Under the pieces are notes generated by a model. The model searched no databases, had not been told where the DNA came from, and worked only from the letters and a program-made list of their open reading frames with translations. Below, one piece after another: positions 7,908 through 41,416 of a DNA stretch of 47,741 nucleotides. A program made the position numbers and the translations under genes. The DNA is from Cypionkella aquatica. GTDB taxonomy: Bacteria > Pseudomonadota > Alphaproteobacteria > Rhodobacterales > Rhodobacteraceae. The stretch covers positions 322,344 through 370,084 of the forward strand of contig NZ_BSPP01000011.1 of assembly GCF_030161095.1 (NCBI RefSeq). Direction: 5' to 3'. Position 1 is the stretch's first letter, and each line of letters opens with the position of its first letter.

Positions 7908-8218
7908 TGTCTGCCTTCGCCGCCGCCGTCGGCGCGCTTTTCGCCGATCCGAACATGGGGCGGGACGCGGTCTACACCTCGGACGGCGGCGTGCCCATTC
8001 TGGTGCGCGTCGTCGCCCGGCGTGCGGATGCCGTCACAGACTTTGGCGACGCGCGACTGTGGTCGGAAACCACGCGCGTCGACCTGCGCGTGGCCGAAGT
8101 GCCAAACCCACGCCCCGGCGACCGGATCGAGATTGATGGCGACGCCTTCCTCATTCAGGGCGAGCCCGTCCGTGATCGCGAACGGCTGGTCTGGACCGTG
8201 GATTTGCGCCCCGCATGA
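7907..8218 (+). CDS. Head-tail joining protein (gpFII-like)
   Basis: 103 residues of beta-rich sequence: FAAAVGALFADPNMGRDAVY, then VVARRADAVTDFGDARLWSETTRVDLRVAEVPNPRPGDR and a final FLIQGEPVRDRERLVWTVDL. This pattern is found in the gpFII-like head completion or tail attachment proteins that complete the connector after DNA packaging. The TGATG overlap with the DUF2190 gene before and the ATGA overlap with the next gene show translational coupling. Confidence 0.75.
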   Translation: MSAFAAAVGALFADPNMGRDAVYTSDGGVPILVRVVARRADAVTDFGDARLWSETTRVDLRVAEVPNPRPGDRIEIDGDAFLIQGEPVRDRERLVWTVDLRPA

Positions 8219-8847
8219 AACTGAAACTCGCCATCGATCCAGACATCGTCGCCCTGATGGCGGCCGAAGTCGCCGCCGGGGAACGCGCCGTCACCGCCGC
8301 TATGCGGGAGGCTGGGACCGGCCTGAAATCCGCCTGGCGCACACAGATCACGGGTGCGGGGCTGGGCACGCGCCTTGCCAACTCGATCCGCTCTGCCAGC
8401 TTTCCGAAATCCGGCGAAAGCCTGAACGCGGCTGCACTGGTCTGGTCAAACGCCCCGGTGATCATCGGTGCGCATGACACCGGCCCGCTGATCCGCTCGA
8501 AGAACGGGTTTTGGCTGGCCATCCCGACGCCAGCGGCAGGCAAGTCCACCCGAGGCGGCAGGATCACCCCCGGAGAATGGGAACGCCGCACCGGCATTCG
8601 ACTGCAGTTCATCTATCGCCGCCGGGGACCGAGCCTGCTGGTGGCCGAAGGGCGACTGAACACCAAGGGTCGCGCCGTGGCGTCCCGGTCGAAAACCGGC
8701 CGTGGTGTCGTCACCGCACCGATCTTCCTGCTGCTGCCGCAGGTCAAGCTGCCGAAGCGGCTGGATCTCACGCGGGACGCCGAGCGGGCGCACGACGCCG
8801 TACCGGCGCTGATTGTGGCGAACTGGGAAGGGAGACGACTGTTGTGA
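8215..8847 (+). CDS. Phage tail/neck protein, DUF6441-like
   Basis: 210 residues, basic, beginning MKLKLAIDPDIVALMAAEVA. A helical N-terminal half (AAMREAGTGLKSAWRTQITGAG) is followed by a segment with WSNAPVIIGAHDTG, FWLAIPTPAAGKSTRGGRITP and LQFIYRRRGPSLLV, and ends DAVPALIVANWEGRRLL. I recall this as the DUF6441 family, placed between the joiner and tail terminator genes in alphaproteobacterial phages; a minor tail or neck role like HK97 gp10 is inferred. It is the last phage gene before the foreign cassette; the gene itself looks intact. Confidence 0.7.
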   Translation: MKLKLAIDPDIVALMAAEVAAGERAVTAAMREAGTGLKSAWRTQITGAGLGTRLANSIRSASFPKSGESLNAAALVWSNAPVIIGAHDTGPLIRSKNGFWLAIPTPAAGKSTRGGRITPGEWERRTGIRLQFIYRRRGPSLLVAEGRLNTKGRAVASRSKTGRGVVTAPIFLLLPQVKLPKRLDLTRDAERAHDAVPALIVANWEGRRLL

Positions 8848-9001
8848 ACCCGCCAGAATGGACCGAACTGTCGGTCGCTGGGGTCGCCCACCTTCTTGCC
8901 TTTTGTCTTCGTGGTTCGTGGAAGTCAAAATTTAGGGCTTGCAACACCAGATCAACTGAATGACCATCTTTGGAACACAAAATGCTGATTTGAGGGATGG
9001 T

Positions 9002-9385
9002 ATGGGTAGCACTGGCTCTGGAAGCTTTTCGGACTATCCCGGCTCGCGCCCTAAAGAGGGAGGTCAAGGAGCCGGTGGTGGCGGCGCCAGTGGGGAAGAT
9101 CGCTGCGCCCGGGCATTCTCCTGCGCCCTCGAAGAGGTAGAGCAGTGTGACTACTTTTCGGCAAACGGCGGCGTTCCTCCGGCTAACATGGCGCTATCCA
9201 TTGAGCAGCGCGGCAGGTTATTTGCAGTCGACGCGGGCGGCCAAACCGTGGGAGCGCTGCCTACCGGGTTCAACTACTTGGCAGACTGCATGGCTGCGGG
9301 TTTCACTTATGAGGGGCGCGTCAACTCCTCTAGATCGGCTCCAGTTGCATCTGTCAGCGTGGATTTTGCGCCGCGGATACCATGA
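9002..9385 (+). CDS. Small Met-Gly protein, proposed partner or substrate of the QueC-like enzyme
   Basis: 127 residues from the ATG at 9002, chosen over the in-frame ATG at 8960 because GAGGGA (8992-8997) is correctly spaced only for 9002. The N-terminus, MGSTGSGSFSDYPGS, is Gly/Ser-rich and followed by a Gly run (GQGAGGGGASGEDR), so methionine removal would leave a free Gly. Residues ~33-127 form a compact domain with Cys35, Cys41 and Cys49, then VGALPTGFNYLADCMAAG, ending in a strand VASVSVDFAPRIP. I do not know a named family. Gly/Ser-led proteins beside QueC-like genes are known in other defence systems (QatB in Qat, from memory). The stop overlaps the next start (ATGA). Confidence 0.75.
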   Translation: MGSTGSGSFSDYPGSRPKEGGQGAGGGGASGEDRCARAFSCALEEVEQCDYFSANGGVPPANMALSIEQRGRLFAVDAGGQTVGALPTGFNYLADCMAAGFTYEGRVNSSRSAPVASVSVDFAPRIP

Positions 9386-10713
9386 GCCGCAATCACGACC
9401 TTCTGGTGGTCGGCGAGGTCTACGTTGATTTCACCCTGCCCAAGGTGGGGGCAGAAAGCAAGTTACGGCTCGGTGGCATCGTTCACGCGGCCCGCGGGCT
9501 TTGGGCAATAGACGCGAGCTTTTCTGTCGCCGCAGTATGCCCCGGCTATCTGGTCGATCAGGCACGCGCCTACCTCGAACGATTGGGGTGCAGCGAATTC
9601 ATTTGGATGGCAGAGGTCAAGGGCGCACCCAATGTGATGGCGATTGGTGACCCGACCGAACTCGCGGACCAAGCCTATCAAGACATCCTGAGAGGCGAAA
9701 GATCCGTCGGGTATCGCGGCGAAGTTGACGTTCTAAAGGCGTACAAGAACTGTCTGATCTTCCCTGGAAAATACGATCTCACAGTGCTGCGATCCCTACT
9801 TGCAGAGGATATTCAGGCAAGCTTCGATATCGCCTATGATCTTCCAGACCTTCAGTTGCTCTCATCGTTTAAAGGAAATCTTGTCTCCATAATTACTTCC
9901 ACTTCGTCTCCGATGTTCCTGGAGAAAGCATCAGAGGATATGTCCAGCTTGCTGGATGATCTCCGCGAGCTGTCGCCGCAGGCGATACTGTTGAAAGAAA
10001 ACCGCGGCGGCAGCCGCGTGTTCGATCTGCTCACCGATGACATAGACGAGGTTCCGGCGCTTCTCGGCGAAACAGTCAACTCAGTCGGTGTCGGTGATGT
10101 TTATTCAGCGGTTTTCTCGTCTACGCTGGATGCGGGCGTTTTTGATGCCGGATGGAAGGCCGCACGCGCTGCCACCTGCTACGCCCACACGACCTACCCG
10201 GATGACTTCAAAAGAGATGTTCAGCGCAGCTTGGCGCTCTCCGTCGATCAGATGCGCGGCCTAGGCGGCACGGTGCTGCCCTGGCACGTGAGACCAGCCT
10301 TTCAGATATACTTCGCTGCTCCCGATTTTTCCTACATCGACCGGACGCACCTCGAAGAGGCACTTCGGGCGCTCGCTTACCATAATTTTCGGCTCCGCAG
10401 ACCAGTACAAGAGAACGGAGAGCTACTTCCGCAAAGCTCGATGCATGAGATGCGCGCCGCATATCTGGGTGATTTAAGCCTTCTTGAGGAGTGTGATCTT
10501 GTTTTCGCACTGCCTCTGGGGCGCGATCCAGGCACACTCGTTGAAATCGGACTGGCCCTCACGCTAAAGAAGCCAGTCATCACTTACGATCCCCTCAATG
10601 AAAATGCCAACACAATGGTCATAGCGGGTAGCACGGTCTATTCGGACAAGCTCGATAGCTGCCTGAACGGCCTCTTCGAAACCATGTCGAAACTGAGGGC
10701 GACGCGCCTATGA
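9382..10713 (+). CDS. PfkB-like kinase fused to nucleoside 2-deoxyribosyltransferase-like domain
   Basis: 443 residues. Residues 1-~285 read as a PfkB (ribokinase) fold: an opening LLVVGEVYVDF, a GGIVHAARGL substrate-binding segment and the anion-hole/catalytic motif SVGVGDVYSAVF, with Asp239 as the likely base. Residues ~305-443 look like a nucleoside 2-deoxyribosyltransferase: YFAAPDFSYIDR, then ECDLVFALPLGRDPGTLVEIG with Asp382 and Glu388 matching the acidic pair of that family, Glu as nucleophile. Such domains phosphorylate nucleosides and break or exchange N-glycosidic bonds. Together they could charge or discharge a modified base on deoxyribose (inference). The N-terminal kinase motif is divergent, so activity is not certain. 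Overlaps both neighbours by four bases. Confidence 0.85.
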   Translation: MSRNHDLLVVGEVYVDFTLPKVGAESKLRLGGIVHAARGLWAIDASFSVAAVCPGYLVDQARAYLERLGCSEFIWMAEVKGAPNVMAIGDPTELADQAYQDILRGERSVGYRGEVDVLKAYKNCLIFPGKYDLTVLRSLLAEDIQASFDIAYDLPDLQLLSSFKGNLVSIITSTSSPMFLEKASEDMSSLLDDLRELSPQAILLKENRGGSRVFDLLTDDIDEVPALLGETVNSVGVGDVYSAVFSSTLDAGVFDAGWKAARAATCYAHTTYPDDFKRDVQRSLALSVDQMRGLGGTVLPWHVRPAFQIYFAAPDFSYIDRTHLEEALRALAYHNFRLRRPVQENGELLPQSSMHEMRAAYLGDLSLLEECDLVFALPLGRDPGTLVEIGLALTLKKPVITYDPLNENANTMVIAGSTVYSDKLDSCLNGLFETMSKLRATRL

Positions 10714-11330
10714 AACAGGCTGTTGTCATGGTCTCCGGTGGACTCGATTCGACGACGGTCTGCTATCTGCTGGTCAGCGAGGGGACGGAAGTTCATCCGA
10801 TCTTCTTCGACTACGGACAACACTGTGCCGAGACCGAATGGGCGAAGGTACAGGAGGTCCTTCCGCAGGAAGCGATGCTGCCAGAACGTCTGAATATCTC
10901 GGATATCTTTAGGGGCTCGCCATCACGGATGATCGTGGAGGCAGACCTTTGGAAGGAAGCCGTCTCTGATGATGACCTATACCTTCCGTACCGGACGATG
11001 CTGTTCTTCGCTGTGGCCGCGGCTCGTGCCCAGACGCTGAAAATCCTCAATGTGTATTCGGGCTTCATCAACAGCAATCATGCCAAGGAAATCGACTGCA
11101 GCACCGCCTTCATGAACGGTCTTGAAGAGCTTTCTCGTGGCGTCGGTGCTGTGCGTTTCCATGCTCCCTTCCGCGAGAAGACTAAAGCCGAAGTCGTTCG
11201 ACAAGCGCTGCAGCTTGGCGTACCCATCGGCCGAACCTTCTCCTGTCAAGCCTCAAGTTCGTTTCCTTGCGGGGCCTGCCCAAACTGCGTAGAGCGGCTG
11301 AAAGCCTTGGCAGAAGCTGGCAATACGTGA
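10710..11330 (+). CDS. QueC-like 7-cyano-7-deazaguanine synthase family protein
   Basis: 206 residues. The N-terminal PP-loop MVSGGLDSTT (residues 7-16) binds and hydrolyses ATP, and IFFDYGQHCAETEW is typical of QueC. YLPYRTMLFFAVAAARA corresponds to the YVPARNTIFLS region of QueC. The C-terminus has four zinc cysteines: Cys179, Cys187, Cys190 and Cys193 (CGACPNCVERL). True QueC turns 7-carboxy-7-deazaguanine into preQ0 for tRNA queuosine. Here the family's usual GVNxxDxSGYPDCR substrate segment is replaced by SGFINSNHAKEIDCS, so substrate or acceptor is probably different. A neighbour starting Met-Gly and a glycosylase point to a conjugation role instead of tRNA modification (inference). Start by ATGA overlap. 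Confidence 0.9.
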   Translation: MKQAVVMVSGGLDSTTVCYLLVSEGTEVHPIFFDYGQHCAETEWAKVQEVLPQEAMLPERLNISDIFRGSPSRMIVEADLWKEAVSDDDLYLPYRTMLFFAVAAARAQTLKILNVYSGFINSNHAKEIDCSTAFMNGLEELSRGVGAVRFHAPFREKTKAEVVRQALQLGVPIGRTFSCQASSSFPCGACPNCVERLKALAEAGNT

Positions 11331-12008
11331 ATGGAAACAAGAAAAATGGCGGAACACCTGAACTACTCCGACGCCCTTTACGCAGCGAGGCGCGTTGCGG
11401 ACCACGCTGTCCGGACAGGCATTCTGGCATCTCGCGCCTCATGCAGGCCGGTGTATCATCATATGGGTGCGGTACTTGCTGACTCGGTATTACAGGCCGG
11501 TCTGAATTACGCGAAAGTCGTGAAGCCCCGGATCGCTTCCATTCTGAGATCGTTTCCGCACGCCATTAGTATTGATATCTTGATCGGCGTGATCGAACAG
11601 GAGGGAAGTCCCAAATTCCTGCAATGGGAGCATAGGGAAAAGGTTTCACGCTTTGATAATCTGATTGCCTTTATGGCCGAAGCTGAAATTCAGAGCACAT
11701 GTGATCTCGGCAAGGCCTTGCGGGACGAAAGCTTTCGAGTGGATATCCGGCGTGTGAGAGGAATCGGCCCAAAAACAGTTGATTACATGGCTTGCCTGGT
11801 TGGGGTAGATTGCATAGCGGTTGACCGTCATATCCGGGGGTTTGCTGAGGTCGCAGGATTGGAAGACGATAGCTACGATTATCTGCGTGAAGTGTTCAGC
11901 TTTGCAGCGGACCTCTTGGCTATCTCTCGGCGTGAATTTGATGCGAGTATCTGGCGCTATCAGTCAGAACAAAACACTCGACAGCTTTCGCTCGCGTTCA
12001 TGCAATAG
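11331..12008 (+). CDS. HhH-GPD family DNA glycosylase (OGG/EndoIII-like)
   Basis: 225 residues. A helix-hairpin-helix is visible at RRVRGIGPKTVDYM (141-153), in which Lys148 aligns with the Schiff-base lysine of endonuclease III. It is followed by the catalytic aspartate in AVDRHIRGF (Asp165). The N-terminal ~100 residues are helical, as expected for the six-helix-barrel half. No C-terminal iron-sulfur cysteine cluster is present, so it is nearer to OGG-type than EndoIII-type enzymes. These proteins flip out and excise damaged or modified bases. In the cassette it may act on deazaguanine-modified or foreign DNA (inference). The ATG directly follows the QueC-like stop; ATG at 11346 is an alternative. 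Confidence 0.82.
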   Translation: METRKMAEHLNYSDALYAARRVADHAVRTGILASRASCRPVYHHMGAVLADSVLQAGLNYAKVVKPRIASILRSFPHAISIDILIGVIEQEGSPKFLQWEHREKVSRFDNLIAFMAEAEIQSTCDLGKALRDESFRVDIRRVRGIGPKTVDYMACLVGVDCIAVDRHIRGFAEVAGLEDDSYDYLREVFSFAADLLAISRREFDASIWRYQSEQNTRQLSLAFMQ

Positions 12009-12076
12009 CCCTCAGTGGTTTTGCCTGACTAAGATCGCTGTTGGGGTCAAAACGACCTCAACCTTCGGAAATCAGT

Positions 12077-12496
12077 ATGCCCACGCCCCGTGAAACCATC
12101 CTCGCCGCGCTGCACGCGCGGTTTTCGGCGTTGCCCGCCACCGCCCTGCGCGGTGATGTGTTGCCCGAGCGCGTGCCCGCCGCAGGTCTCCTGATCCTGC
12201 GCGACGGTGAGCCCGGCGAGCCCGAGGTCACGCTGTCGCCTCTGCGCTACCACTACCAGCACCGGGCCGAGATTGAGGCGGTCGTGCAGGGCGCGACCCG
12301 TGACGCCGCCTTCGACACGCTCTGCGCCAGCATCGGCGCGGCGATTGGCGCCGACCGGACGCTGGGCGGACTTTGCGACTGGGTCGAGGCGGCAGCGCCG
12401 CGCCCGGTCGATCTGCCGGTCGAGGGTGCCGCCAGCCTCAAGGCGGCCGTGATCCCAGTGGTCCTGCACTATTCCACGGCCGACCCGCTGGCCTGA
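12077..12496 (+). CDS. Minor tail protein, tail terminator-like
   Basis: 139 residues starting MPTPRETILAALHARFSALP. The order of a helix, LLILRDGEPGEPEVTLSPLRYHY, the repeated-strand AEIEAVVQGATRDAAFD and a final AAVIPVVLHYSTADPLA is that of tail terminator/completion proteins (lambda gpU-like) that cap the tail tube. Similar genes are often misnamed acyl-CoA transferase. It is the first phage gene after the foreign cassette and appears intact, so the insertion did not damage it. An upstream in-frame ATG at 12041 exists, but this start gives the family-like N-terminus. Confidence 0.7.
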   Translation: MPTPRETILAALHARFSALPATALRGDVLPERVPAAGLLILRDGEPGEPEVTLSPLRYHYQHRAEIEAVVQGATRDAAFDTLCASIGAAIGADRTLGGLCDWVEAAAPRPVDLPVEGAASLKAAVIPVVLHYSTADPLA

Positions 12497-12520
12497 CCCA
12501 ACTCACGATAGGAGAACACG

Positions 12521-13459
12521 ATGGCACGAGCCCATGGGGCGCGGGCGCAGATGGCGCTTGCGTTCGAGACCGTCTATGGCACCGCGCCCGCCTCGGGCTA
12601 TCGCACGGTGCCCTTTGCCAGCACCACGCTCGGCTCCGAACAGCCGCTGATCGCCTCGGAACTGCTGGGCCAGGGGCGCGATCCCTTGGCTCCGATCAAG
12701 GACGCGGTCACCGCCGATGGCGATGTCGTGGTCCCGATCGACGTCGAGAACCTCGGGTTGTGGCTGAAGGCGGCCTTCGGCGCGCCGGTCACCTCCGGCA
12801 CGACGCCCAAGACCCACACCTTCCAGTCCGGCAACTGGACGCTGCCCAGCCTCGCCATCGAAACTGCGATGCCCGAGGTGCCGCGCTACGCCATGTACAC
12901 GGGCTGCGTCTGCGATCAGCTTTCGTGGCAGATGGCGCGGTCGGGCCTGCTGACCGCGACTGCCCGGCTGGTGGCGCAGGGCGAGAGCGTCGCGGCGGCC
13001 ACTGCCGCTGGCACGCCGACGTCACTGGCCCTGCAGCGGTTCGGCCATTTCAACGGGGCGATCACGCGCAACGGCTCGCCGCTCGGCAACGTCATCTCGG
13101 CAGAGGTGACCTATTCCAACGGTCTGGACCGGATCGAGACCATCCGCTCGGACGGCCGGATCGAAGGTGCAGACCCCGGCATGGCCGCGCTGACAGGTCG
13201 TGTCGAGGTCCGTTTCGCCGACAGCACGCTGATCACGCAGGCCATCGACGGCACGCCTTGCGAGTTGGTCTTTGCCTGGAGCCTCGGGGCCAACGCCAGC
13301 TTCACCTTCACCGCGCATGCCGTCTACCTGCCGCGCCCCCGGATCGAGATCCCGGGCCCGCAAGGCATCCAGGCCACCTTCGACTGGCAGGCCGCCAAAG
13401 CTGTCACCCCCGCCCGCATGTGCACCGCCGTCCTCGTCAACACCGTTGTGAGTTACTGA
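12521..13459 (+). CDS. Phage tail tube protein
   Basis: 312 residues, starting MARAHGARAQMALAFETVYGTAP, followed by beta-rich sequence: FASTTLGSEQPLIASELLGQGRDP, PIDVENLGLWLKAAFGAPV and ITRNGSPLGNVISAEVTYSNGLD, then CELVFAWSLGANASFTFTAHAVYLPRP. This is the standard layout of siphovirus tail tube proteins, which stack as rings around the tape measure. A strong AGGAG is placed before the ATG. The abundance of this product would suit the good ribosome site. High confidence by both sequence pattern and position before the chaperone genes. Confidence 0.88.
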   Translation: MARAHGARAQMALAFETVYGTAPASGYRTVPFASTTLGSEQPLIASELLGQGRDPLAPIKDAVTADGDVVVPIDVENLGLWLKAAFGAPVTSGTTPKTHTFQSGNWTLPSLAIETAMPEVPRYAMYTGCVCDQLSWQMARSGLLTATARLVAQGESVAAATAAGTPTSLALQRFGHFNGAITRNGSPLGNVISAEVTYSNGLDRIETIRSDGRIEGADPGMAALTGRVEVRFADSTLITQAIDGTPCELVFAWSLGANASFTFTAHAVYLPRPRIEIPGPQGIQATFDWQAAKAVTPARMCTAVLVNTVVSY

Positions 13460-25673: not shown

Positions 25674-25685
25674 ATAGCGCGCTAT
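25674..25685. repeat. Perfect 12-bp palindrome at the prophage/defence junction
   Basis: ATAGCGCGCTAT is its own reverse complement. It lies between the convergent tail-fibre stop (25662-25664) and the helicase stop (25682-25684), overlapping the latter. It may serve as a weak two-way terminator, or be the remnant of a recombination or attachment core at the boundary between two acquired blocks. Confidence 0.4.
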
Positions 25686-28453
25686 GAAACAAGCTCGATG
25701 TACCCAATCAACTCAGCCGAATAGCTACCGTCGCCAGCAGCGGCACCTTTGTGCCTCAGCTCCCGCTGCAAAGTTGGTTCCACATGCTGAGCAAACAACT
25801 CAATCCGCCCTTCCGCCGAAAGCGCTGGGCGACACGGGTTTGATCGCAGCACAATGTCTATCTGACGTTCAGCTGCTGGTAACCTGGTGCCTTCAAGATT
25901 CACGGCGATTGCTTGGATTGTAGACCTGTGTTCACCAGCGCTATTCGACGTCTCGATCATCCAAATAGTGAGAACTGCTGGCCCATGACCGCTGTCTTCA
26001 AGGGCAACGCCTAACGACTCGGGCGAAACGCTGCGCCATCGCCCCAGCTCTTCTTGGAGCAGTGGGTGATCTAGCCCCATTAGATCGTATTTGTCGTTGC
26101 CGGTGGCAGTATCTCGATCAAGCGTGAACCTTGTTTTCAGTGTTCCCTCAGAAGTGATCAGATCGACAGTTCGATCATCGACCTTGACCACTCGCATGTT
26201 CTGATTGCTCACGGTTGACGACAGAAATGCAACCAGTCGCCCCATACCGGAAGAAACATCGGAGAATGGCTTATAGTCATCTAGACTAAAGCCATCTAGG
26301 TCTTGGAAAAGGTCAAATACGACTTCTCGGGCCTCGCGCGCATTGGATAGTGCCGCCTCAAGTTCAACCGCTGTCCGCTTAAGCTCAGGATCACCTAGTG
26401 CCTCTTGATACAAACGATCATAGTTTAGGCGCTCTGAAAGCTGCCCAAGTATCTGCGACCTGAGGTCTTCAGCGACATTTCCTTGATCATCGACTTTTCC
26501 AAGTGTACGGGCAATCTCTGTGAGCTTGTCATCAAGCAGCAGGAAAATTCTGCCTTCAATAGTGTCAGAAAGAACAAGATTATAGACTTGGGCTGTGTGG
26601 TTTTGACCGTAGCGATGAATGCGACCAATTCTTTGCTCCATGTCCATGGGATTCCATGGCAGGTCAAAATTGAAAAGTATCCGCGCAAACTGAAGATTTA
26701 TCCCTTCTCGACCAGCGGCAGTGCAAACAAGAACCCTCGGCCCATCCTTTTGCTTGAATCGACGCTCCGCTGCTACCTTTGCCCCGTGATCGCCTCCTCG
26801 TAGCACTGCTACCCCTTGACCTGGATAGACTGCTTCAATTTCCTTCGCAATCAGATCGACTGTGCCGAGATACGTGGCAAAAATCACAATCTTTTCGTTC
26901 GGGTTCTGTCGCCAGAGCACACCCAAACCGTCGACTAGTTTCTGAGCCTTGGTTTCGCGCTGGACTGGGAAGCTGCTGAGTAGATCGGCAATTCGGAGCC
27001 GCTCTTCGGGAAGATGCAGATCAATCGCGGCGGATGCCAGATCTTCGAGATGCGAGGACACGAATTCGCTGCCGTAGGGATCCGACGCCATCTCCAGCTC
27101 GTCTTCATCCAGCTTTTTGGCGAGGCGATGTTTCAGGTCTGCCATCACCCTGTCAACTTCGCTTCTCGAAATCGGATCTCTGCCCAGACCCCATTCAATA
27201 TGGATCAGCTCTCGGGCTTCATCGTAAAGACGCTCCCGCCCCTCGATGTCGAGTTCGCGATCTCGCAGCAGCGCTTCATGCAAGGTCAACATCAGCATCC
27301 GGCGTTTCAAAGTACGTCGAACGGCCGCGAAACTGGATGCAGCAATCTTCTGGAATATTGCCATTAGGAAGCCAAGGGCGCGGCCTTGATTGCCTTTGCG
27401 CTTTGCCAGGTCAAAGCCGTCCTCAAGGTATTCACGCAGTTTTTCGTAGAAGCCCCGTTCCTCCTCACTCATTAGGAATGATTCCGTGTGTACCCAGCGT
27501 CGGGCAAACAGCGGTTCGCCATCAGGTTTGCACGCATCAGCTTTTGTCCGGCGGAACATCACCGTGTTCAGACGATGCCGGTTCTCCAGCATGTCTTCGG
27601 GGCTGCTGAAGAGGGTTGGGTTCAGTAGCTGGATCAGCATCCAAAACTGGAAGTGATTTCCCTGGTGCGGCGTAGCTGAAAGCAGAAGCAGGTCGCGTGC
27701 ATGACCTTTCAGGGCTTCGCCAAGCTTGTAGTTCTCGGTCTTTCGCACCTTGCCGCCGATGCGGTGTGCGGTGACATGATGTGCTTCGTCGAAAACCACC
27801 AGGTCCCAACGTGGCGCATCCAAGAGGCGCTTGATGCGGGCTGGGCGCTTTAGAGTGTCGATGCTGGCGATCAACCGATCATGTTTCGCGAAGGCATTGG
27901 TTTTCCGGTCTGTTATATCCCCCTCGGAACCGAACACCTCGAAATCGAGATTGAACACTTCATTCAATTCCCGATGCCAGTTGTTTACCAGTCCGGCAGG
28001 CACAACCATCAGAGCGCGGTTTAGTTCACCCCGGCTAGCCAGCTCTCGAAGGATCAAGGCTGTTTCGATGGTTTTGCCGAGCCCAACCTCGTCAGCAATC
28101 AGGAACCGGCGGGGTGACGCTGTCGCGATCCGGTGGGTCAGAACAACCTGATGGGGTAGCAAGTCGATCCGCGCAGAGGTCAGCGCCGATGCGCTTTCCA
28201 TGATTGGCAGGGCATGGGCTTCATAGGACAGCCAGACACTCCGTGCTCTTTCAGCGGTCCCCTCGACTGAACCGAGGATTCGCTCGGTCCTTGACCGTTC
28301 CTTTTTGATGCTGCCGAGTGGAACTCGGCGCTCGCCGCCGGTGAAGAATGCCCGAAGGTAGCCGTCGCGTGGTGGCTCAAGCACGACGCCAGCGCCGTGG
28401 TCGGGGTGGGTAATCCGTTCACCCGGGCTGAAAGTGATCTCAGTTGACAACAT
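25682..28453 (-). CDS. SNF2-type DEAD/H helicase, anti-phage associated
   Basis: 923 residues from the ATG at 28453, which overlaps the 166-residue gene stop as TGATG. The longer upstream frame is noise. Superfamily 2 motifs are clear: I, ADEVGLGKTIETA (120-132); II, DEAHH (222-226); III, LLLSATPHQGN; and VI, QRIGRIHRYGQ near 660. A ~200-residue helical C-terminal region follows, with several acidic stretches. The N-terminus, TFSPGERITHPDHGAGVVL, resembles a CarD/UvrB-interaction-like beta domain. Probably a DNA translocase acting on unmodified phage DNA with the other operon proteins, similar in kind to BrxH or DrmD (family-level comparison). The 3' half is less GC-rich than the 5' half. Confidence 0.9.
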   Translation of the reverse strand: MLSTEITFSPGERITHPDHGAGVVLEPPRDGYLRAFFTGGERRVPLGSIKKERSRTERILGSVEGTAERARSVWLSYEAHALPIMESASALTSARIDLLPHQVVLTHRIATASPRRFLIADEVGLGKTIETALILRELASRGELNRALMVVPAGLVNNWHRELNEVFNLDFEVFGSEGDITDRKTNAFAKHDRLIASIDTLKRPARIKRLLDAPRWDLVVFDEAHHVTAHRIGGKVRKTENYKLGEALKGHARDLLLLSATPHQGNHFQFWMLIQLLNPTLFSSPEDMLENRHRLNTVMFRRTKADACKPDGEPLFARRWVHTESFLMSEEERGFYEKLREYLEDGFDLAKRKGNQGRALGFLMAIFQKIAASSFAAVRRTLKRRMLMLTLHEALLRDRELDIEGRERLYDEARELIHIEWGLGRDPISRSEVDRVMADLKHRLAKKLDEDELEMASDPYGSEFVSSHLEDLASAAIDLHLPEERLRIADLLSSFPVQRETKAQKLVDGLGVLWRQNPNEKIVIFATYLGTVDLIAKEIEAVYPGQGVAVLRGGDHGAKVAAERRFKQKDGPRVLVCTAAGREGINLQFARILFNFDLPWNPMDMEQRIGRIHRYGQNHTAQVYNLVLSDTIEGRIFLLLDDKLTEIARTLGKVDDQGNVAEDLRSQILGQLSERLNYDRLYQEALGDPELKRTAVELEAALSNAREAREVVFDLFQDLDGFSLDDYKPFSDVSSGMGRLVAFLSSTVSNQNMRVVKVDDRTVDLITSEGTLKTRFTLDRDTATGNDKYDLMGLDHPLLQEELGRWRSVSPESLGVALEDSGHGPAVLTIWMIETSNSAGEHRSTIQAIAVNLEGTRLPAAERQIDIVLRSNPCRPALSAEGRIELFAQHVEPTLQRELRHKGAAAGDGSYSAELIGYIELVS

Positions 28454-28953
28454 CAGGTGATCCGGAGGTGGAAGAGGCCGGCAGGCTTGCTCCCTTGCGT
28501 CAGGACGATTTCCTGCGGGTATTCCCGGGCTTCGCCCCAGAGCAACCGTCCGAACTCGATCTGTTCGTCTGAGTAGGGGGCTGAACAACGCCAATGAACT
28601 GCTTCGGTCGCTGGCGAGACACCGAGCCGCCGGTGGCCGGTGGGCAACCAGAACACAAGAGCGGCCTCTCCAGAATAGAAATCCTGGAATGATAACACGG
28701 TGGCTTTCAGCTCGCTGCCCAGCCAAGCCTCAGCATCGGTTGGCGTCATGAGATCAAGACAGGCATCCAGACCTGCCACGACCAGCGTGTTACTGCCGTT
28801 GCTGGGCAAGTCATCTGGCCAGCTCCTCGAAGCGCGGACCAACTCGCGCAGGCTGAACACCTCGCTTGCCTTCGCTACAGAGGAGAAGGCGTCGTTTTCC
28901 CAGATCCAGCTGACGCCGCGCCGCTGCCATACGCTGTCGAGAAGCTGCTTCAT
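28453..28953 (-). CDS. Unrecognised 166-residue protein of the defence operon
   Basis: 166 residues. I see no P-loop, helix-turn-helix or nuclease motif, and I do not recognise a family. Alpha/beta pattern: GVSWIWENDAFSSVAKA, NTLVVAGLDACLDLMTP, LKATVLSFQDFYSGEAALVFWLP and GHRRLGVSPATEAVHWRC, ending in EIVLTQGSKPAGLFHLRIT. The alternation of hydrophobic strands suggests a compact globular partner protein. It lies between methyltransferase (stop two bases upstream) and helicase (one-base overlap), so it is almost certainly a component of the system. BrxF or DUF3780 roles were considered, but no diagnostic motif was found. Confidence 0.75.
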   Translation of the reverse strand: MKQLLDSVWQRRGVSWIWENDAFSSVAKASEVFSLRELVRASRSWPDDLPSNGSNTLVVAGLDACLDLMTPTDAEAWLGSELKATVLSFQDFYSGEAALVFWLPTGHRRLGVSPATEAVHWRCSAPYSDEQIEFGRLLWGEAREYPQEIVLTQGSKPAGLFHLRIT

Positions 28954-28955
28954 GC

Positions 28956-31900
28956 TCAGTCCTCCTGGAACAGCGACAGTTGGCGCACCTGGTCTTTGTT
29001 GCTGGCGGCCCAGTTGTTGTAGATCGTCAGTGCCCGTGATGCGGCATTACGCATCGTTTGGGTCTGGCCCCGCTTGCTCAGCCATTCGAGCAGGCTTTTC
29101 AGCGCCGGGTGCGGCTTGAAGTTCTCATTCTTAAGCGTGTCCGAGGCGTTGATGCCGCTGCCGTCATAGCAGGCACCCACCATCACAAGGGCCTGATCGA
29201 GGTCGGCCGTCAGCTTGCGCCGATGCTTGCCCTGCCAATCGCGAGCAAATGCCAGCGGGTCCACCAAGTGAAAGACCTTCTTGTCCTCATTGCACCAGCG
29301 TCGTGTCTCGAATTCGTCCGGGGCTATGCCTGAGCCGCGGAGTAGCTTCTGAATCTGGTCGCGGGCCAGTTCGGTCTTGCCGTCGAAGATGCGGAGGAAC
29401 TGGCGCGAGATTGGCTCTGCGATCACTGGCGGCGGCTCGGCCGTCTTGTTCGCGTCCTCGTCGATCAGCTGGTTGATCCCGACCAGCGCGTCCTTGACCG
29501 AGATCGGACGGCCTTCATCGACATAGACCTTGCCGTAGTGGCGCGAGAAGTATTCGAGCGCCTTGCCACGGCGGATGACCTGAAGGTCAGCCGCAGGTAA
29601 ACCCGCACGGGCGTGGTTCTCCAGCATGCCCTGTAGCTGCCGGACATCAGCCAGCACCTCGCGGCGCATCCGGCCCCAGCTGACCGGCTTGGGTTCTTCG
29701 GTGCGCTTGCGACAGACGTGAATGATGTCGTACTCGATCTGCTGGGAACCGAAAGTACCGGGCTTGCTGCCTTCGCCCTTGGTTTCGTCACTGCGGATCG
29801 GATATGCGGCCTCAAGATAAAATCCGGCATCGAAGAGGCTTTCCAAGACAGAAACCCAAGGCTCATCCTCAGAGTGGTGGAATGTAAATGCCAGAAGGCC
29901 GCCATCCTTTAGTATCCGATGAGACTCCACCCAACTTTGCGTGAGCAAACGCTTGTAAAAGCCTTCGGGGTCATCCTTCTCGCGAACGGGGTTCGTTACA
30001 GCTTCCATTGCTTTCGGAGTTAGTTCCGCAGAAAAAACTTCAGGATACTTGCCTTTCAAAACAAGCCGAAGCCAAACATAAAAGTAGTCAGCAAGTTCAG
30101 AGTATTGGATGTTGTTTCCGAACGGCGGATCGGTGATCACCAAATCTATTGAGCCGGTCTCAATTCCGTCCAACGCAGTCGCAGAGCCCTGAAAAAGCCT
30201 TGCTGCTGCAGGTTGGTCCTTTGGGAACACCTTCTCGCTTTTACCTTGAATCTCCTGAGAAAGCGAAGGCCACTCTCTTTCAAGATTGGACGCGGCAACT
30301 AGCTCCCAAGGGTTATCCTTCCATTCCAAAGCTTCGGGAATTACCTTTATTGTGCTTTTCCATGGGCCGTATCCCGCAGCTGCAAAAACACCAACTTCGA
30401 CCACATTTGCCTTCGGGTGATAGTTATTGTTGGACATTGAGGGGGCGTAGTGGTCTTTTGTAATGTGCCAAAATGAAAACATTGACTGGTTTCGTAGGTA
30501 CTGTTGGAATCCACCGAGAACACTCTCGCGTGCTGACTGGCTATACTTTGTTCCACCACATTCAGAGATCGCCTTGAGCAAGAGCGAGTGCACCAGAAGC
30601 TGGCGGGGATTAAACATATCTTGGAATTCTGGATACCCGTGCTCCGGAATTCTCTGATAAGTCGTCTTGAAGCCCTCAGGCAAGCGTGCTTTTGGCCAGA
30701 ACCCTGCTAGATCAGTATTCCGGCGACGCTCCCATTCATATAGCGCGGCATTGTATTGCTTGACGTATATCCCTGTCGCAGGCATGTAAAAGCGCCCGCC
30801 ATAGGGGGCTGCTTTCGATGACGGATCCTCAGTGTAACCCTGCAAGCCATAGTTCGCCATCGGCCCAGCTTTGCCAAAGAGCGTCATAGTCTGGAGAACG
30901 TCTTGCTCAGTTCCACAAGCGGCACAAGTAAAGTGCGATTTTTTTGGAACTGTCCCTGCGTCCTTTCCCGTTGAGAACGACACACCTGTCGTTGGGCATG
31001 TGACCGACTCCGGAAGTTGGCCGCGAACTTCGAGCAGATGAAGATTCTTTGCTCGTTCGTTATTCCACGGAATAGTCGAAGCTGCGTCGTCCTGTGCCGC
31101 GCCGCCAAATATTGTCCCGTCTAGGCCTTTTCGAGCGGTTCCTGCTAGCCAGTCAGGATGGACGAGCAATGTCAGCTCAACCTTCTTGTTCTTCCCTTTG
31201 CCCAAGCGAAGCTGCCCTCGACCGCTCTCTATGTGTAGCCCTGTCGTTGGATGAACGTGCGCGGCGGATTTCATTTCGCAGCCGGGGCAAGTTACTTGTC
31301 CGCTGGCCGACAGATTTGCATACGGCAGCTCCTCTGGCGCAACATAAAGGGGAACATCCGGCGCCATACGTGCCTCAGCCTCCTCGATGTCGAATGAGGT
31401 GTCGCAGGACGGGCATTTGTGTGCCCAGCTCTTCACAGAAATAGTCTTTATGGCCATGACAGGACTAGTCATTATCGGCGTACGATGGCCGCAGCCTGTC
31501 ACCTGGCATGGCCCATGCTTGGCCCAGAAGGTGTAGATGATCTCGGGCCCTTCGTAGCCGTAGTCCTTCCGCTCTTCTGGCTTCAGGGCCAGCGGATCGA
31601 AATCCACGCCCATCACCTTGCCGGAGGGTTTATGCGTCCAGGTGCCTTTCTCGCCGTTCGGGCCGTCGCAATAATAGAACGGCATAATCTGCGGCTTCAC
31701 CTCGGCCTCGATGTCGGCCAGCAGGCGCTTCACCTCATCCAGATCGACATCCGCCAGTTCCTGTTTGACCACGAACCAGGCAACGGGGTTCAGGTCGTTG
31801 CCTGACATCTGCATGCCAAGGCGAGAGCCTTCGACCAGCGTGGTGCCGCCGCCCATGAAGATGTCAGCGACCTTCAGGTGCTTGAAGGCACCCTTCTTCT

Positions 31901-32222
31901 GGTGGTTGGCATAATAGTTGTCCCAGACCAGCTTTGCCGCATGGGACGGATCTTCGGGTGCTTTGGTCGCGGCCGCGATGAGCATCGAGCGGAACACGCT
32001 GGACCGCCGCCGCGCCCACCATTTCGACATCTGATAGATCGGCTTGCCCGCGTTGCCCTCGATCACAGCGACCTGGTTCACGGGCAGGATAGGAAAATCC
32101 ACCTCAAGGCAGGTCTTGGGCCGGTTGGGATCGCTGAAATCGACGGTCTCCATGGCGACGGCTTTACTAGCACCCACCGCACGCGCGACCTCTTGGGCAA
32201 TCAGTTCTTTCTTGGTCGCCAT
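28956..32222 (-). CDS. DUF1156 adenine-specific DNA methyltransferase
   Basis: 1088 residues. The N-terminal DUF1156 region has CLEVDFPILPVNQVAVIEGN and MSKWWARRRSSVFRSML, followed by an SAM-site-like motif DIFMGGGTTLVEGSRLG (120-136). Zinc-ribbon pairs follow (CPSCDTSFDI, CPGCEMKSA). The catalytic motif IV, ITDPPFGNNIQYSELADYF, has DPPF at 698-701, with DGGLLAFTFHHSEDEPW afterward. Proteins of this kind methylate adenine N6 to mark host DNA in BREX/Pgl-like systems. The middle third (about 29.9-31.4 kb) is less GC-rich than both ends, suggesting exchange of the target-recognition region. AAGGA precedes the ATG, 13 bases after the PglZ gene. Confidence 0.9.
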   Translation of the reverse strand: MATKKELIAQEVARAVGASKAVAMETVDFSDPNRPKTCLEVDFPILPVNQVAVIEGNAGKPIYQMSKWWARRRSSVFRSMLIAAATKAPEDPSHAAKLVWDNYYANHQKKGAFKHLKVADIFMGGGTTLVEGSRLGMQMSGNDLNPVAWFVVKQELADVDLDEVKRLLADIEAEVKPQIMPFYYCDGPNGEKGTWTHKPSGKVMGVDFDPLALKPEERKDYGYEGPEIIYTFWAKHGPCQVTGCGHRTPIMTSPVMAIKTISVKSWAHKCPSCDTSFDIEEAEARMAPDVPLYVAPEELPYANLSASGQVTCPGCEMKSAAHVHPTTGLHIESGRGQLRLGKGKNKKVELTLLVHPDWLAGTARKGLDGTIFGGAAQDDAASTIPWNNERAKNLHLLEVRGQLPESVTCPTTGVSFSTGKDAGTVPKKSHFTCAACGTEQDVLQTMTLFGKAGPMANYGLQGYTEDPSSKAAPYGGRFYMPATGIYVKQYNAALYEWERRRNTDLAGFWPKARLPEGFKTTYQRIPEHGYPEFQDMFNPRQLLVHSLLLKAISECGGTKYSQSARESVLGGFQQYLRNQSMFSFWHITKDHYAPSMSNNNYHPKANVVEVGVFAAAGYGPWKSTIKVIPEALEWKDNPWELVAASNLEREWPSLSQEIQGKSEKVFPKDQPAAARLFQGSATALDGIETGSIDLVITDPPFGNNIQYSELADYFYVWLRLVLKGKYPEVFSAELTPKAMEAVTNPVREKDDPEGFYKRLLTQSWVESHRILKDGGLLAFTFHHSEDEPWVSVLESLFDAGFYLEAAYPIRSDETKGEGSKPGTFGSQQIEYDIIHVCRKRTEEPKPVSWGRMRREVLADVRQLQGMLENHARAGLPAADLQVIRRGKALEYFSRHYGKVYVDEGRPISVKDALVGINQLIDEDANKTAEPPPVIAEPISRQFLRIFDGKTELARDQIQKLLRGSGIAPDEFETRRWCNEDKKVFHLVDPLAFARDWQGKHRRKLTADLDQALVMVGACYDGSGINASDTLKNENFKPHPALKSLLEWLSKRGQTQTMRNAASRALTIYNNWAASNKDQVRQLSLFQED

Positions 32223-32235
32223 GGGCGTTAATTCC

Positions 32236-33225
32236 TTACTTCGTCAATTCAACAAACGGGCAGAGCATCTCGAGCAGGGACAGGCCGCCATGCGCGAGGG
32301 TGGGGTATCCGCCCTGGCTTTTCCATTTCCAGCGGCCGAGGGCGAGCAGGTGCTTGCCGTGCGGGCTGTCAACCTGCAGCGCGACCGGGGGAACGAACGG
32401 GCCCGGGTCGTGATCGCCAGCGGCGAGGCGGCCGCTTTTGAGGGCGTTCTTCAGGAAGGTGCCCTGATCGTCTGCCGCGTCGAAGAATAAGCCGGTTGCG
32501 GCATAGCCGTGGTCGGAGGTGATCACCAAGCGGCGACCTGTCGCCAGCCGCTCCACGAATGACCAGAAATCGTCGCTGGTAAGCTGCGCCGCGATGTCCC
32601 GTGTGAGCACATCCAGACCTTGGCCGGCACCGGCGCCATCGTGGAGCTTCGTGTCAGGCCATTGGTGCCAGAACAGCCAGTTGGGTGAGGCGTCGATCAG
32701 CCCGGCACAATCTTTCCAAGGCATGTCGATGCACTCGGTCCTGGCAGGCGCGAGGCGGTGAAGCAGGCCGCCGCCGTTGTTCTGAAGCTGACCGCGGCTG
32801 TTCAACCCGAGCGCCTTGGCGAAGGCGTTTGTTTCGCTGGGTATCTCAGCCGCGTAAGCCGTGGAGGTATGCCGCGCGAAGCCGCGAGCCTTCGCGCCCT
32901 CGATCAGCCAGGGCAGTTCCCGCAGGCTGAGGCCGTCCAAGACAAGCACCGCTTTGGCACTGTATGGTTTTTCCCACCATTCGCTGACCTTGTCGGCGTT
33001 GCGCGGGACGATATCCCCAAAAGCCCGCCACAAATCCCAAGCCACCGACGAAAGGAAATGGTCCAACTCACCGATAGCGCGGTCGCGCCGTGTGACTTCC
33101 GCAGATGCGCTGGCGACATTCAGCGGACTGCCGCAGACTTCCAAGGCGAGTTCAATCACGGTCTGCCAAGCCTCTTCGGGTGAAGACTTGGTCAGATCAA
33201 GCAACTGTTGTGCGTCCAAAGCCAT
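32236..33225 (-). CDS. PglZ-domain protein (alkaline phosphatase-like)
   Basis: 329 residues. The alkaline-phosphatase-fold metal sites are seen in KAVLVLDGLSLRELP (Asp97) and RLVITSDHGYAATG (SDHG at 237-240), and a conserved tail reads AHGGLSLLEMLCPFV. This is short for a BREX PglZ, which is often 650-900 residues, so it represents mostly the catalytic core. PglZ proteins are required in Pgl, BREX and related systems; metal-dependent nuclease or phosphodiesterase activity has been reported for some. TGATG overlap with the DUF499 gene upstream. Confidence 0.87.
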   Translation of the reverse strand: MALDAQQLLDLTKSSPEEAWQTVIELALEVCGSPLNVASASAEVTRRDRAIGELDHFLSSVAWDLWRAFGDIVPRNADKVSEWWEKPYSAKAVLVLDGLSLRELPWLIEGAKARGFARHTSTAYAAEIPSETNAFAKALGLNSRGQLQNNGGGLLHRLAPARTECIDMPWKDCAGLIDASPNWLFWHQWPDTKLHDGAGAGQGLDVLTRDIAAQLTSDDFWSFVERLATGRRLVITSDHGYAATGLFFDAADDQGTFLKNALKSGRLAAGDHDPGPFVPPVALQVDSPHGKHLLALGRWKWKSQGGYPTLAHGGLSLLEMLCPFVELTK

Positions 33226-35984: not shown

Positions 35985-36850
35985 ATTTCAGCTTCAGCGC
36001 GACGTACTTCCGCACTGGATGCCAGCAAAACAATCTGTTGTTCTTCCGGTTTTCGTGAACCCGGGGCTGAATCGAGGCCCAGTCGCCTCAAGGCGTAGTA
36101 CAGCAGCGCCCGTCGAACGGATATCTTGGCACTGCCGCCCGTCATCCCATAGTCGAGTTCGATGACCCGGCGCTGTGTATCGGAAAGTTCCGGATGTGGG
36201 CCGATCACCAGATCGACCTGCTCAGCCCAATCCATGTCCGCAACGCTGCCGATCTGGGATGGCTGCACGCCGCGCGTTTCGAGGATCCGGGAGAGAAGGA
36301 AATCCTTAAAACAGTTATCCAGCAGGCAGAAAGCACGAGTGTGCCACCGGTAGCCATCGAACGCGATGGCATGCGGCGCAATCCAGCGCCAGACTGGTTC
36401 CGGACGAGACAGCGACTGGTACTGCACCTCGACTGCCTCGGTCCGACGAATGGCACCCACAATCGAGCGGAGTGTCACGGGGTTCACACCCCGTACCGGG
36501 GTTGGAGCTGCATCGTAAGCGGGATGGACAGCGATCCATGAATCCTCTGGATCGAGCAGTCCGTCGGCCAGGGACCGAAGCTGCGCGAGATAGCGGCCTG
36601 CGTCAGGTTGCAGAAACTGCGCCTTGAAACCAGGCCCGCGAACATATGTTCGCGCACTTTTGTCGTAGACCATGTTGTCCGGAGCAAAGCCGATGTAACG
36701 ATTCAGGTCGGATGACGCCTGGTTTACCGACAGCCCGAACTGCTCCATCACGTCGCTGCGGTTCACATGCCCCTCCCAGAACAGGCGGAACTCGATGAAC
36801 TCGAGCCGTTGCTCGACGCCCCAACGAAGTTCCCCACTGCCGTTTTCCAA
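35981..36850 (-). CDS. WYL-domain transcriptional regulator (BrxR/CapW type)
   Basis: 289 residues with a TTG start at 36850. A winged helix-turn-helix occupies residues ~10-60 (RLEFIEFRLFWEGHVNRSDVMEQFGLSVNQAS). A WYL-like sensor domain covers ~120-215 (RSIVGAIRRTEAVEVQYQSLS, WRWIAPHAIAFDGYRWHTRAF), and a C-terminal dimerisation extension ends the protein. Homologues BrxR and CapW repress BREX and CBASS operons by binding inverted repeats and are released by a ligand that senses infection. It is the first gene of this operon and sits next to a palindrome (36870-36896), matching that mode. No ATG gives a complete HTH. Confidence 0.88.
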   Translation of the reverse strand: MENGSGELRWGVEQRLEFIEFRLFWEGHVNRSDVMEQFGLSVNQASSDLNRYIGFAPDNMVYDKSARTYVRGPGFKAQFLQPDAGRYLAQLRSLADGLLDPEDSWIAVHPAYDAAPTPVRGVNPVTLRSIVGAIRRTEAVEVQYQSLSRPEPVWRWIAPHAIAFDGYRWHTRAFCLLDNCFKDFLLSRILETRGVQPSQIGSVADMDWAEQVDLVIGPHPELSDTQRRVIELDYGMTGGSAKISVRRALLYYALRRLGLDSAPGSRKPEEQQIVLLASSAEVRRAEAEM

Positions 36851-37234: not shown

Positions 37235-38149
37235 TCAATCGGTGTGGGCGGTCTCGCCCGCAGTGACTTCGGTGATCGTCTGAAACTCGCTCAAGAAGTC
37301 GGCGTGGTTCTGCGCCAGGTAGCGCGTGACCCGTGCATTGCCGACCAGTTTGCCGACGTATCCCTTGATCACCGTCAGCTGCAGATGATCTTGGCCGTAG
37401 GTGTCCTGGATGGAGGCGATCCCCTCTTGCAACCGGGTCAGTTCGCGCTCCATGCGTGCCATCGCTTCGGGCGTGATCCCCTTGACCTTCTTTGGCTTTG
37501 ACGCCTCGACCAACTGCGCCTGAGGCGTGCCGGCCAAGATGGCATTGGCATAGGCAACCGAAAAATTGTTCGCGTTCACGAGGAGCTCTGCTGACTCGAT
37601 CTGGCGTAAGGTCTTCATTTTGCGAAGCGTGTCGAAGACGGCAGCAGTGCAGGGTTTGTCTTTTAGGATTGCGACAGCTTCCTCGCAAATCCCGTCTAGT
37701 AGCCTTGCTTTTCGCATGATGCTGCGCGGGCTTAGGTCGAGCGCGGCCGCAATCCTTTCCTCGGGCACGCCTCGCTCAATCGCCTTGAGGATCATCTTGT
37801 GTTCCTGAATCGGCGCAAGGCGGCTGATCTGTCGATTGTAAGTGAAAGCTTCGTCATCGGTGGAAATCAGGCATTCAACCTCTTGCGCGCCCGAGTCCTT
37901 CAGCACTTCGATACGCATGTGGCCGTCCAGAAGCAGCCAAGTGTCCGCAGCGTCGGGGTTTCGCGCCACGACCGGCGGCTCGACAAGGCCGATTTCGGCT
38001 ATGGACGCAGCGATCTGCCGGTACTTCCTGCTCGATTTCGCGGTCTTGCTCATCGTCCGGAGGGGCAGAACCGCTTCGATGCGCAGGGTGATGCATTGGT
38101 CCTCGAATCCTCGAGAAACCCCGCGGGAAGAGCTGGGCTCCCGCCTCAC
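37235..38149 (-). CDS. ParB/RepB-like protein with RepB C-terminal domain
   Basis: 304 residues, GTG start overlapping the upstream gene by four bases. A ParB N-terminal fold is visible: IEAVLPLRTMSKTAKSSRKYRQIAASIAEIGLVEPPVV and WLLLDGHMRIEVLKDSGAQEVECL, in which GHMR replaces the GERR of true ParB CTPases. A helix-turn-helix-like stretch follows (VPEERIAAALDLSPRSIMRKARLL). The C-terminal part (about 170-300) fits the plasmid partition RepB C-terminal family. There is no ParA here. In this recurring trio with a serine recombinase the proteins probably assist or regulate recombination; this is inference. Confidence 0.82.
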   Translation of the reverse strand: MRREPSSSRGVSRGFEDQCITLRIEAVLPLRTMSKTAKSSRKYRQIAASIAEIGLVEPPVVARNPDAADTWLLLDGHMRIEVLKDSGAQEVECLISTDDEAFTYNRQISRLAPIQEHKMILKAIERGVPEERIAAALDLSPRSIMRKARLLDGICEEAVAILKDKPCTAAVFDTLRKMKTLRQIESAELLVNANNFSVAYANAILAGTPQAQLVEASKPKKVKGITPEAMARMERELTRLQEGIASIQDTYGQDHLQLTVIKGYVGKLVGNARVTRYLAQNHADFLSEFQTITEVTAGETAHTD

Positions 38150-41139: not shown

Positions 41140-41416
41140 AAAGTTTGGCTCTGCGGTTAGAATGTGGTCCTCTCAACAAGGCACCTGCCATGCCAAGTGG
41201 TGCCCCTCCATCAGAGCTTAAATGTGGTTTGGCCCGACTCAAGCCGAGTGTCGCCAACACGGGGGCGCCGAGAAGCTGCCCGGGGTGCATGGAAGAATAT
41301 TTTGAAGGACCGGCGCGCCGTGCCTGCTAGATGTAGCTTGCAGGGTCTGCTACACCTCTAGAGGAAGGGGCGGATGCCCTTGGAAAAAATGACTGCGAGA
41401 GGTTGTGGAGCGAATG

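Follow-up and report, generated by a model that had tools for sequence, protein, structure and literature searches.

A four-gene cassette in a Cypionkella aquatica prophage that pairs a QueC-like enzyme with a glycine-led, predicted HIRAN-fold protein

What are four genes of foreign composition doing inside the structural operon of a phage, and what might a QueC-like enzyme act on there? The question arises from a stretch of DNA of 47,741 nucleotides from Cypionkella aquatica (assembly GCF_030161095.1, contig NZ_BSPP01000011.1, positions 322,344 to 370,084 of the forward strand), called the window below, which holds at 9002-12008 a cassette of four genes, A to D. The unit is inherited together and occurs in prophages, plasmids and chromosomes. 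Its gene order, the tail of protein A and one aspartate of the QueC-like protein C are the evidence on which we rest our preferred reading, namely that the QueC-like enzyme modifies the tail protein in a conflict role, the whole being a mobile and probably anti-phage cassette. We put the chances of this at about even, and grade the remaining steps of the mechanism lower than this core.

Gene order, spread and insertion site

The cassette comprises the following features.

9002-9385, + strand: gene A, 127 aa, putative acceptor protein
9002-9094, + strand: flexible tail of A, residues 1-31, starting MGSTGSG
9110-9382, + strand: predicted HIRAN-fold domain of A, residues ~37-127
9382-10713, + strand: gene B, 443 aa, PfkB/ribokinase-like half plus nucleoside 2-deoxyribosyltransferase (NDT) half
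10306-10608, + strand: NDT half of B, PF05014
10710-11330, + strand: gene C, 206 aa, QueC-like ATP-dependent enzyme, putative conjugating enzyme
11331-12008, + strand: gene D, 225 aa, HhH-GPD glycosylase/AP-lyase-like, with K148 and D165

The genes meet in two ATGA overlaps and one abutment, and G+C content falls to 0.535-0.567 over 9001-12000, against 0.647 in 8001-9000 and 0.690 in 12001-13000. Coordinates and composition thus confirm an earlier note on this DNA, which had described four overlapping or abutting foreign genes inside a phage structural operon. That note had named rare co-occurrence elsewhere as a result that would speak against a system; the order A-B-C-D is kept in 34 loci with a window-type B, the window included. 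Gene D is absent only from L030 and L076, where a contig edge cuts the locus short (the same edge accounts for the missing C of L076), and A only from L009, a locus whose contig begins within B. Chance neighbourhood is rejected, since the order persists where A and B have fallen to 31-37% identity (L076, L099, L100, L102).

Loci were collected through B or C, and tests in the reverse direction therefore rest on the plasmid collection. Searching with A returned 4 of 72,556 plasmid records, all four with B. Searching with D returned eleven: the four complete cassettes, one remnant, and six actinobacterial plasmids with HhH relatives at 28-34% identity. Three of these six were inspected and had no A-C alongside, so that distant relatives of D live alone. 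The remnant, on Agrobacterium plasmid pLN1 (L169, 4353-5124), is a lone HhH gene, 48.6% identical to D, behind a 34-residue remnant of a QueC end, and is a decayed cassette. Another 65 QueC-family loci, from viral contigs, contain none of A, B or D. The cassette is found in its own genome and in one of 288 others of the class, and a more distant type, named after locus L022, in 6 of 398 genomes of the phylum. For genomes G655-G665 no completeness is stated, and some are metagenome-assembled.

All loci with B number 63, window included, and are not independent (L002 and L029, for example, or the window, L001 and L035). One locus search kept 80 of at least 326 matches; from one set of 27 loci, L080-L089, with a match to the NDT part only, were dropped, and L066-L071 repeat earlier contigs. 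For the L022 type, 20 of 37 plasmid records were analysed, the other 17 looking like near-copies by their search rows. Viral contigs contributed L072-L079, L099, L100 and L102; L072 truly starts MGSS, the automated tail scan having picked an inner start.

The insertion site is described by four further features.

8215-8847, + strand: left flank, phage gene phrog_6367
8930-9001, + strand: upstream block, a possible promoter or leader, from alignment of upstream regions
8992-8996, + strand: ribosome site GAGGG before gene A
12041-12496, + strand: right flank, phage tail terminator phrog_4204, the same neighbour in the prophage's relatives

Structural genes lie on both sides, with terminase, portal, head-protease fusion and phrog_6367 to the left and tail terminator, minor tail protein and tape measure to the right. 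Nostoc phage Nsp-JY21 shows the site empty: its homologues of the two flanking genes share 4 bp, and the cassette is absent. We sought seven phage genes in 36 loci, each reaching some kilobases per side. Homologues stand beside the cassette in conserved order, on one or both sides, in 14 loci (L001-L004, L008, L029-L037), while L005 and L014 retain no more than a fragment (54-55%) of the left phage gene and L100 gave a single distant capsid match. None of the seven was found in L006, L007, L009-L012, L015, L016, L065, L072-L076, L099 or L102, a result that covers those genes and short flanks only, so that it does not mean absence of a phage. L014 is a Neotabrizicola plasmid, and this copy, with its scrap of the left gene, has apparently moved out of a prophage. 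The earlier description of the cassette as prophage-borne gives an incomplete picture, since relatives are also found on plasmids and in chromosomes.

The cassette sits among late structural genes, yet it has an upstream block that it shares with its relatives. About 70 bp before A are similar in 11 of the 12 upstream regions aligned, including L006, L007 and L014, more weakly in L008 and not in L010. Because copies with and without phage genes have this block in common, a leader may travel with the unit itself. A scan of 8700-12200 for the sigma-70 consensus gave no match.

The four proteins and their known relatives

Protein A is predicted to be a flexible Gly/Ser-led tail on a HIRAN-fold domain. 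In its AlphaFold2 model (21 aligned sequences), residues 10-31 have a predicted local distance difference test (pLDDT) below 50, a confident, beta-rich domain begins at about residue 37, and block means are near 90 beyond residue 40. Foldseek searches of the PDB with this model placed twelve HLTF HIRAN chains and four lp_0118 chains at ranks 1-16, all with probability 1.00 and with E-values of 1.4e-3 to 2.3e-2 (1.4e-3 to 1.2e-2 for the HLTF chains); the remaining PDB rows listed have probabilities of 0.33 or less. Among viral models the best match was Gp253 of Bacillus phage G (7.6e-4), followed by a protein annotated as "HIRAN domain" (1.0e-3). A sequence profile of A found no match among PDB sequences. 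HIRAN of HLTF binds DNA 3' ends. Residues ~37-127 of A are predicted to share its fold, at 12-13% identity, and DNA-end binding by A is hypothetical.

Residues M1, G2 and S3 are invariant across 17 sequences of the window's type. An in-frame ATG further upstream is lacking in 11 of the 14 relatives and present only in L001, L011 and L015; the start at 9002 is favoured on this ground, and one at 8960 was rejected. So placed, A shows in its model the disordered Met-Gly N-terminus of Qat-like and Cap9-like acceptor tails.

Protein C belongs to PF06508, QueC (Pfam 3.4e-33; PADLOC QueC 93.9 bits, 3.4e-27). By single-sequence phmmer it appears about equally near Cap9 (9nto_B, 1.4e-12) and canonical QueC (2pg3_A, 7.7e-12). 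All 62 QueC proteins compared keep S9, G10, G11, S14, Y35, E43, P93, R95, D129, C179 and C190, and 61 keep D13, Q37, C187 and C193; the ATP loop SGGxDS, the YGQ motif, D129 and the four zinc cysteines are thus present in 61-62 of 62. D129 aligns with Cap9 D117, which, according to PMC13279940, recognises the conjugated deazaguanine by its Watson-Crick edge while Y115 stacks on the base. Invariance of D129 at this position counts in favour of tail modification by C. The same text describes QatC as having neither the Tyr nor the Asp, its reaction being unresolved (PMC13279940). A canonical QueC or preQ0 synthase was rejected for C, which scores 102 of the 150.3 bits needed for equivalog TIGR00364 in a host without QueD.

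In protein B, Pfam recognises the NDT half (PF05014, 7.1e-14), and the PfkB half gives only a sub-threshold match (0.062). The kinase assignment draws on alignment with relatives of the L022 type (L022 itself passes PF00294) and on a profile match to ribokinases: a profile of window-type and L022-type B proteins finds NDT 6evs at 4.5e-13 and ribokinase 6ilr at 1.5e-6. Of the 59 non-TIR homologues, 58 keep D239 and 58 keep E388; the two departures are a serine and a gap. Neither phage records searched with B nor viral contigs scanned with the L022 PfkB yielded a match.

Protein D has no HhH match in Pfam and a PADLOC OGG match of 19.8 bits (1.2e-4). Its AlphaFold2 model (mean pLDDT 89.3) retrieves MagIII 1pu7 (E 1.0e-3), Tm Ogg 3n0u, MutY and OGG1, with probabilities of 0.94-1.00 among the 50 Foldseek matches listed, and all 16 sequences compared keep K148 and D165. 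The model clearly presents an HhH-GPD fold with Lys and Asp at the predicted active site. From family knowledge we take D239 and E388 of B, with K148 and D165 of D, to be catalytic; that such residues are kept in kinase, NDT and HhH supports the earlier note, which had singled out Glu388, Asp239 and Asp165 for mutation.

Two defence systems invite comparison. OGG is a further partner in type IV CBASS (cyclic-oligonucleotide-based anti-phage signalling system). That system, with its Cap9 QueC, Cap10 tRNA-guanine transglycosylase (TGT) and CD-NTase tagged by an MGGS tail, resembles the cassette in having a QueC-like enzyme, a Gly-led tail, a base-exchanging enzyme and an OGG/HhH relative; the cassette differs in that its putative acceptor is a HIRAN-fold protein and PfkB-NDT stands in the TGT slot. 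Membership was rejected, as no CD-NTase family and no TGT matched any of the four proteins and both flanks are phage structural. Qat, as described in PMC13279940, likewise combines a small partner bearing a long flexible MG(T)S tail with a QueC-family enzyme, although QatB is helical whereas A is predicted beta-rich. C is 206 aa without extensions and scores 26.7 bits on QatC equivalog NF041925 against a cut-off of 280, and neither the QatA KAP ATPase nor the QatD TatD nuclease has a match among the four proteins, so that membership in Qat was rejected too. These absences agree with the earlier note, as do the QueC core of C, with its ATP loop, zinc cysteines and base-reading Asp, and the likeness of A's tail to the ones on QatB and on the CD-NTase of type IV CBASS. 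Protein deazaguanylation has been shown in type IV CBASS (PMC11996544) and suggested for Qat (PMC13279940). By the tests made the cassette lies outside both systems, but it seems to work like them.

Part of the cassette has already been published. The pair of QueC and PfkB-NDT was described in July 2026 as Cluster 4 of PF06508 and read as purine salvage (PMC13329287). As in that description, the PfkB-NDT fusion lies directly upstream of the QueC-like gene in the window. L022-L024 fit the cluster's motif CH(x)5CxxCxGCxK, whereas C of the window has CQ(x)6CxxCxxC, and the accessible text proposes purine salvage with mention of neither a tail protein nor an HhH gene (PMC13329287). The earlier suggestion of a possibly new system is thus limited by prior publication of the pair, under another interpretation; for the tail protein, the HIRAN fold, the TIR/TGT version and the HhH partner we found no paper in the open-access literature, bioRxiv lying outside that search. 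The first reading was partly right overall, having missed the HIRAN fold, Cluster 4 and the copies without detectable prophage neighbours.

The wider set of tail-led loci

A tail-led frame ends at B in 57 of the 63 loci; of the other six, two are truncated at contig ends and four belong to a TIR type. Among the complete non-TIR loci, the gene before B has a tail in 57 of 57 under a loose rule, as against 236 of 1315 control frames, and in 52 of 57 under a strict rule, as against 75 of 1315, the controls being frames of the same loci with the tail genes included. The L022 type has B (in L022 itself passing both the NDT and the PfkB cut-offs), a QueC-like C and a tail gene before B, and the domain of its tail protein matches A in profile-profile comparison (hhalign 96.8%, E 2.7e-10). 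Haloarchaeal members have a longer tail protein with an MGGG or MCGG start and two A-like domains by eye, and one haloarchaeal relative gives a sub-threshold Pfam HIRAN match (0.011). The haloarchaeal plasmid cassettes L019, L020 and L056 seem to carry a double HIRAN-like domain, L019 near TIR genes.

Neighbours across the wider set are varied: an OGG-like glycosylase, nitroreductase, Dam, dGTPase, an Mrr-type nuclease and the Vut_1 transporter. Near L022 the Vut_1 transporter is annotated with queuosine salvage. An opposite-strand pair in L023, L048, L052 and L054 consists of a hypothetical protein or 8-oxoguanine glycosylase with a DNA adenine methylase, and in L050 and L052 (Rhizobium and a Synechocystis plasmid) genes for multiubiquitin, a ThiF adenylyltransferase and DUF6527 adjoin the cassette.

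In the TIR type (L021, L057, L058 and L064, three of them on rhizobial-group plasmids) an MGGG tail is carried by a TIR-like protein encoded just after QueC. The kinase half of B is kept there, but the NDT half has lost Y310, A312, P314, F316, G384 and T385 throughout the four loci and E388 in two of them; in L021 Pfam matches PfkB with no NDT. A TGT of CBASS type appears instead: PADLOC TGT matches all three loci scanned (L021, L057 and L058, at 8.5e-23, 1.8e-22 and 9e-21), fused to TIR in L021, and the L064 genome has a weak TGT match near QueC. Each of the other 18 carriers searched has a single TGT, which lies far from the cassette or on a different contig. The presence of TGT where NDT is dead suggests that the two may fill one slot. 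The glycosylase of L021 matches Pfam Ogg-HhH (2.2e-25), and PADLOC OGG matched no TIR-type glycosylase. As sets of a tagged TIR, a TGT protein, a glycosylase, QueC and a dead-NDT kinase, these loci resemble a CD-NTase-free QueC defence.

Proposed function, alternatives and neighbouring elements

How might the parts work together? Removal of Met from A would expose its N-terminal Gly. Using ATP, C would activate a guanine-like base (7-carboxy-7-deazaguanine or a related compound) at its carboxylate and would join the base to that Gly, as Cap9 does to its CD-NTase. B would fill the place held in type IV CBASS by the TGT-family Cap10: its NDT half may add deoxyribose to the conjugated base, or remove it, and its kinase half may phosphorylate the product. 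The state of A could then report on the deoxynucleoside pool or on DNA breakdown during infection; its HIRAN domain may take it to DNA ends or forks, where D would excise bases and cut DNA. A bolder form of the scheme, speculative and in our estimate rather improbable, has A become a protein-linked deoxynucleotide, with the base on Gly2, deoxyribose from phage-freed deoxynucleosides, and a phosphate, which could sense or enter phage DNA at HIRAN-bound ends and be removed or trapped by the HhH enzyme, NDT (deoxyribose) and TGT (RNA) then being exchangeable variants of one step throughout QueC-based immunity.

A number of observations weigh against this scheme, foremost the supply of the base. 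The window's genome is 99.91% complete, yet the cassette's own gene is its single PF06508 member and no QueD (PF01242) or second QueC was found in it. A QueE probe also found no match there, though this probe is insensitive: it hit 4 of 19 genomes, one of them its own source, and missed G260 and G361, which have both QueD and QueC. Among 13 hosts of the window's type, QueD is absent from eight and a second full-length QueC from eleven, so that most have no known source of carboxy-deazaguanine, the main gap in a deazaguanylation reading. All 19 carriers searched have TGT and 17 of them Vut_1, the window's host having both, and hosts with these two and without QueC and QueD may import queuosine precursors. 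Such hosts would have to use some other carboxylate or to receive the base from an external source, possibly phages bringing in the pathway.

Other adverse points concern the proteins. For A, no PDB match by Foldseek falls below 1e-3, and a Pfam scan finds no HIRAN, indeed no match at all. For C, the profile comparison puts it nearer canonical QueC (2.3e-30) than Cap9 (2.6e-25), and the position of Cap9's stacking Tyr is E in 33, H in 25 and F in 4 of the 62 proteins. Most L022-type tails start MSG, not MG; a loosely tail-like frame lies within 2.5 kb in 8 of 65 control viral QueC loci; and, as the four TIR-type loci are related to one another, the exchange of NDT for TGT may be a single event. 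Both the sequence of steps assigned to B and the target proposed for D are conjectural.

Might the genes serve nucleobase or nucleoside salvage instead, with the QueC-like enzyme, NDT and kinase recycling a purine analogue, A serving as an accessory subunit and D acting in repair? Enzymes of the NDT and PfkB families are of salvage type, and the window's host, with TGT and Vut_1 but no QueC or QueD of its own, probably lives on imported precursors; salvage is also what PMC13329287 proposes for the Cluster 4 pair. We nevertheless think it unlikely, as it leaves unexplained the conserved tail, the appearance of the tail on TIR proteins and the rare, patchy spread, and as distant relatives have Mrr nuclease, Dam, dGTPase and TIR among their neighbours.

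A second alternative keeps the tail defence and replaces the base with a carboxylate other than a deazaguanine, for example a guanine-like acid from phage DNA breakdown. It would suit hosts that have no pathway and the replacement of the Tyr while the Asp is kept, and QatC, too, is described as having no Tyr/Asp pair, with its reaction unresolved (PMC13279940). Set against it are the invariant D129 and the Vut_1 transporter near L022, with its queuosine-salvage annotation, both pointing to 7-deazaguanine; on balance it seems to us improbable.

Protection of the prophage's own DNA by a 7-deazaguanine base, as an anti-restriction measure, would fit the place among late structural genes and the 278 phage records that match C, all below 60% identity, but is very unlikely given that the four genes show no QueD, QueE or TGT/DpdA match and the host no QueD, that C misses the TIGR00364 cut-off, that copies without the seven phage genes exist (L006, L007, L010-L012, L015, L016) and that no phage record matches B.

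If the QueC-like enzyme does modify the tail protein, the loci would form a broader modular set of HIRAN-tail, MSGS and TIR types in which a similar tail sits on different acceptors, and a group published as purine salvage would be re-read as probable immunity. The NDT/TGT exchange would offer an idea of what the transglycosylase step does, and the lack of QueD in eight of 13 hosts sharpens the question of where the base comes from.

The window holds other elements. On the minus strand, 25682-36850 is a likely further defence island with an SNF2 helicase (PADLOC BrxHI 4e-97, HmaA 2.2e-94, and DrmD), a methylase (HmaB 1.9e-37), a DUF499 ATPase, a WYL protein and one further gene. Tandem RepB-type genes by a serine recombinase (37235-40628, minus strand) suggest an integrated element adjoining the prophage. 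A tyrosine-integrase-like gene with DUF6538 and a weak Phage_integrase match lies at 44048-45316 (plus strand). An HD-domain protein at 41405-42934 (plus strand) matches PADLOC dGTPase at 4.1e-69; dGTPases also occur near the distant QueC/PfkB-NDT cassettes L024, L050, L051 and L054.

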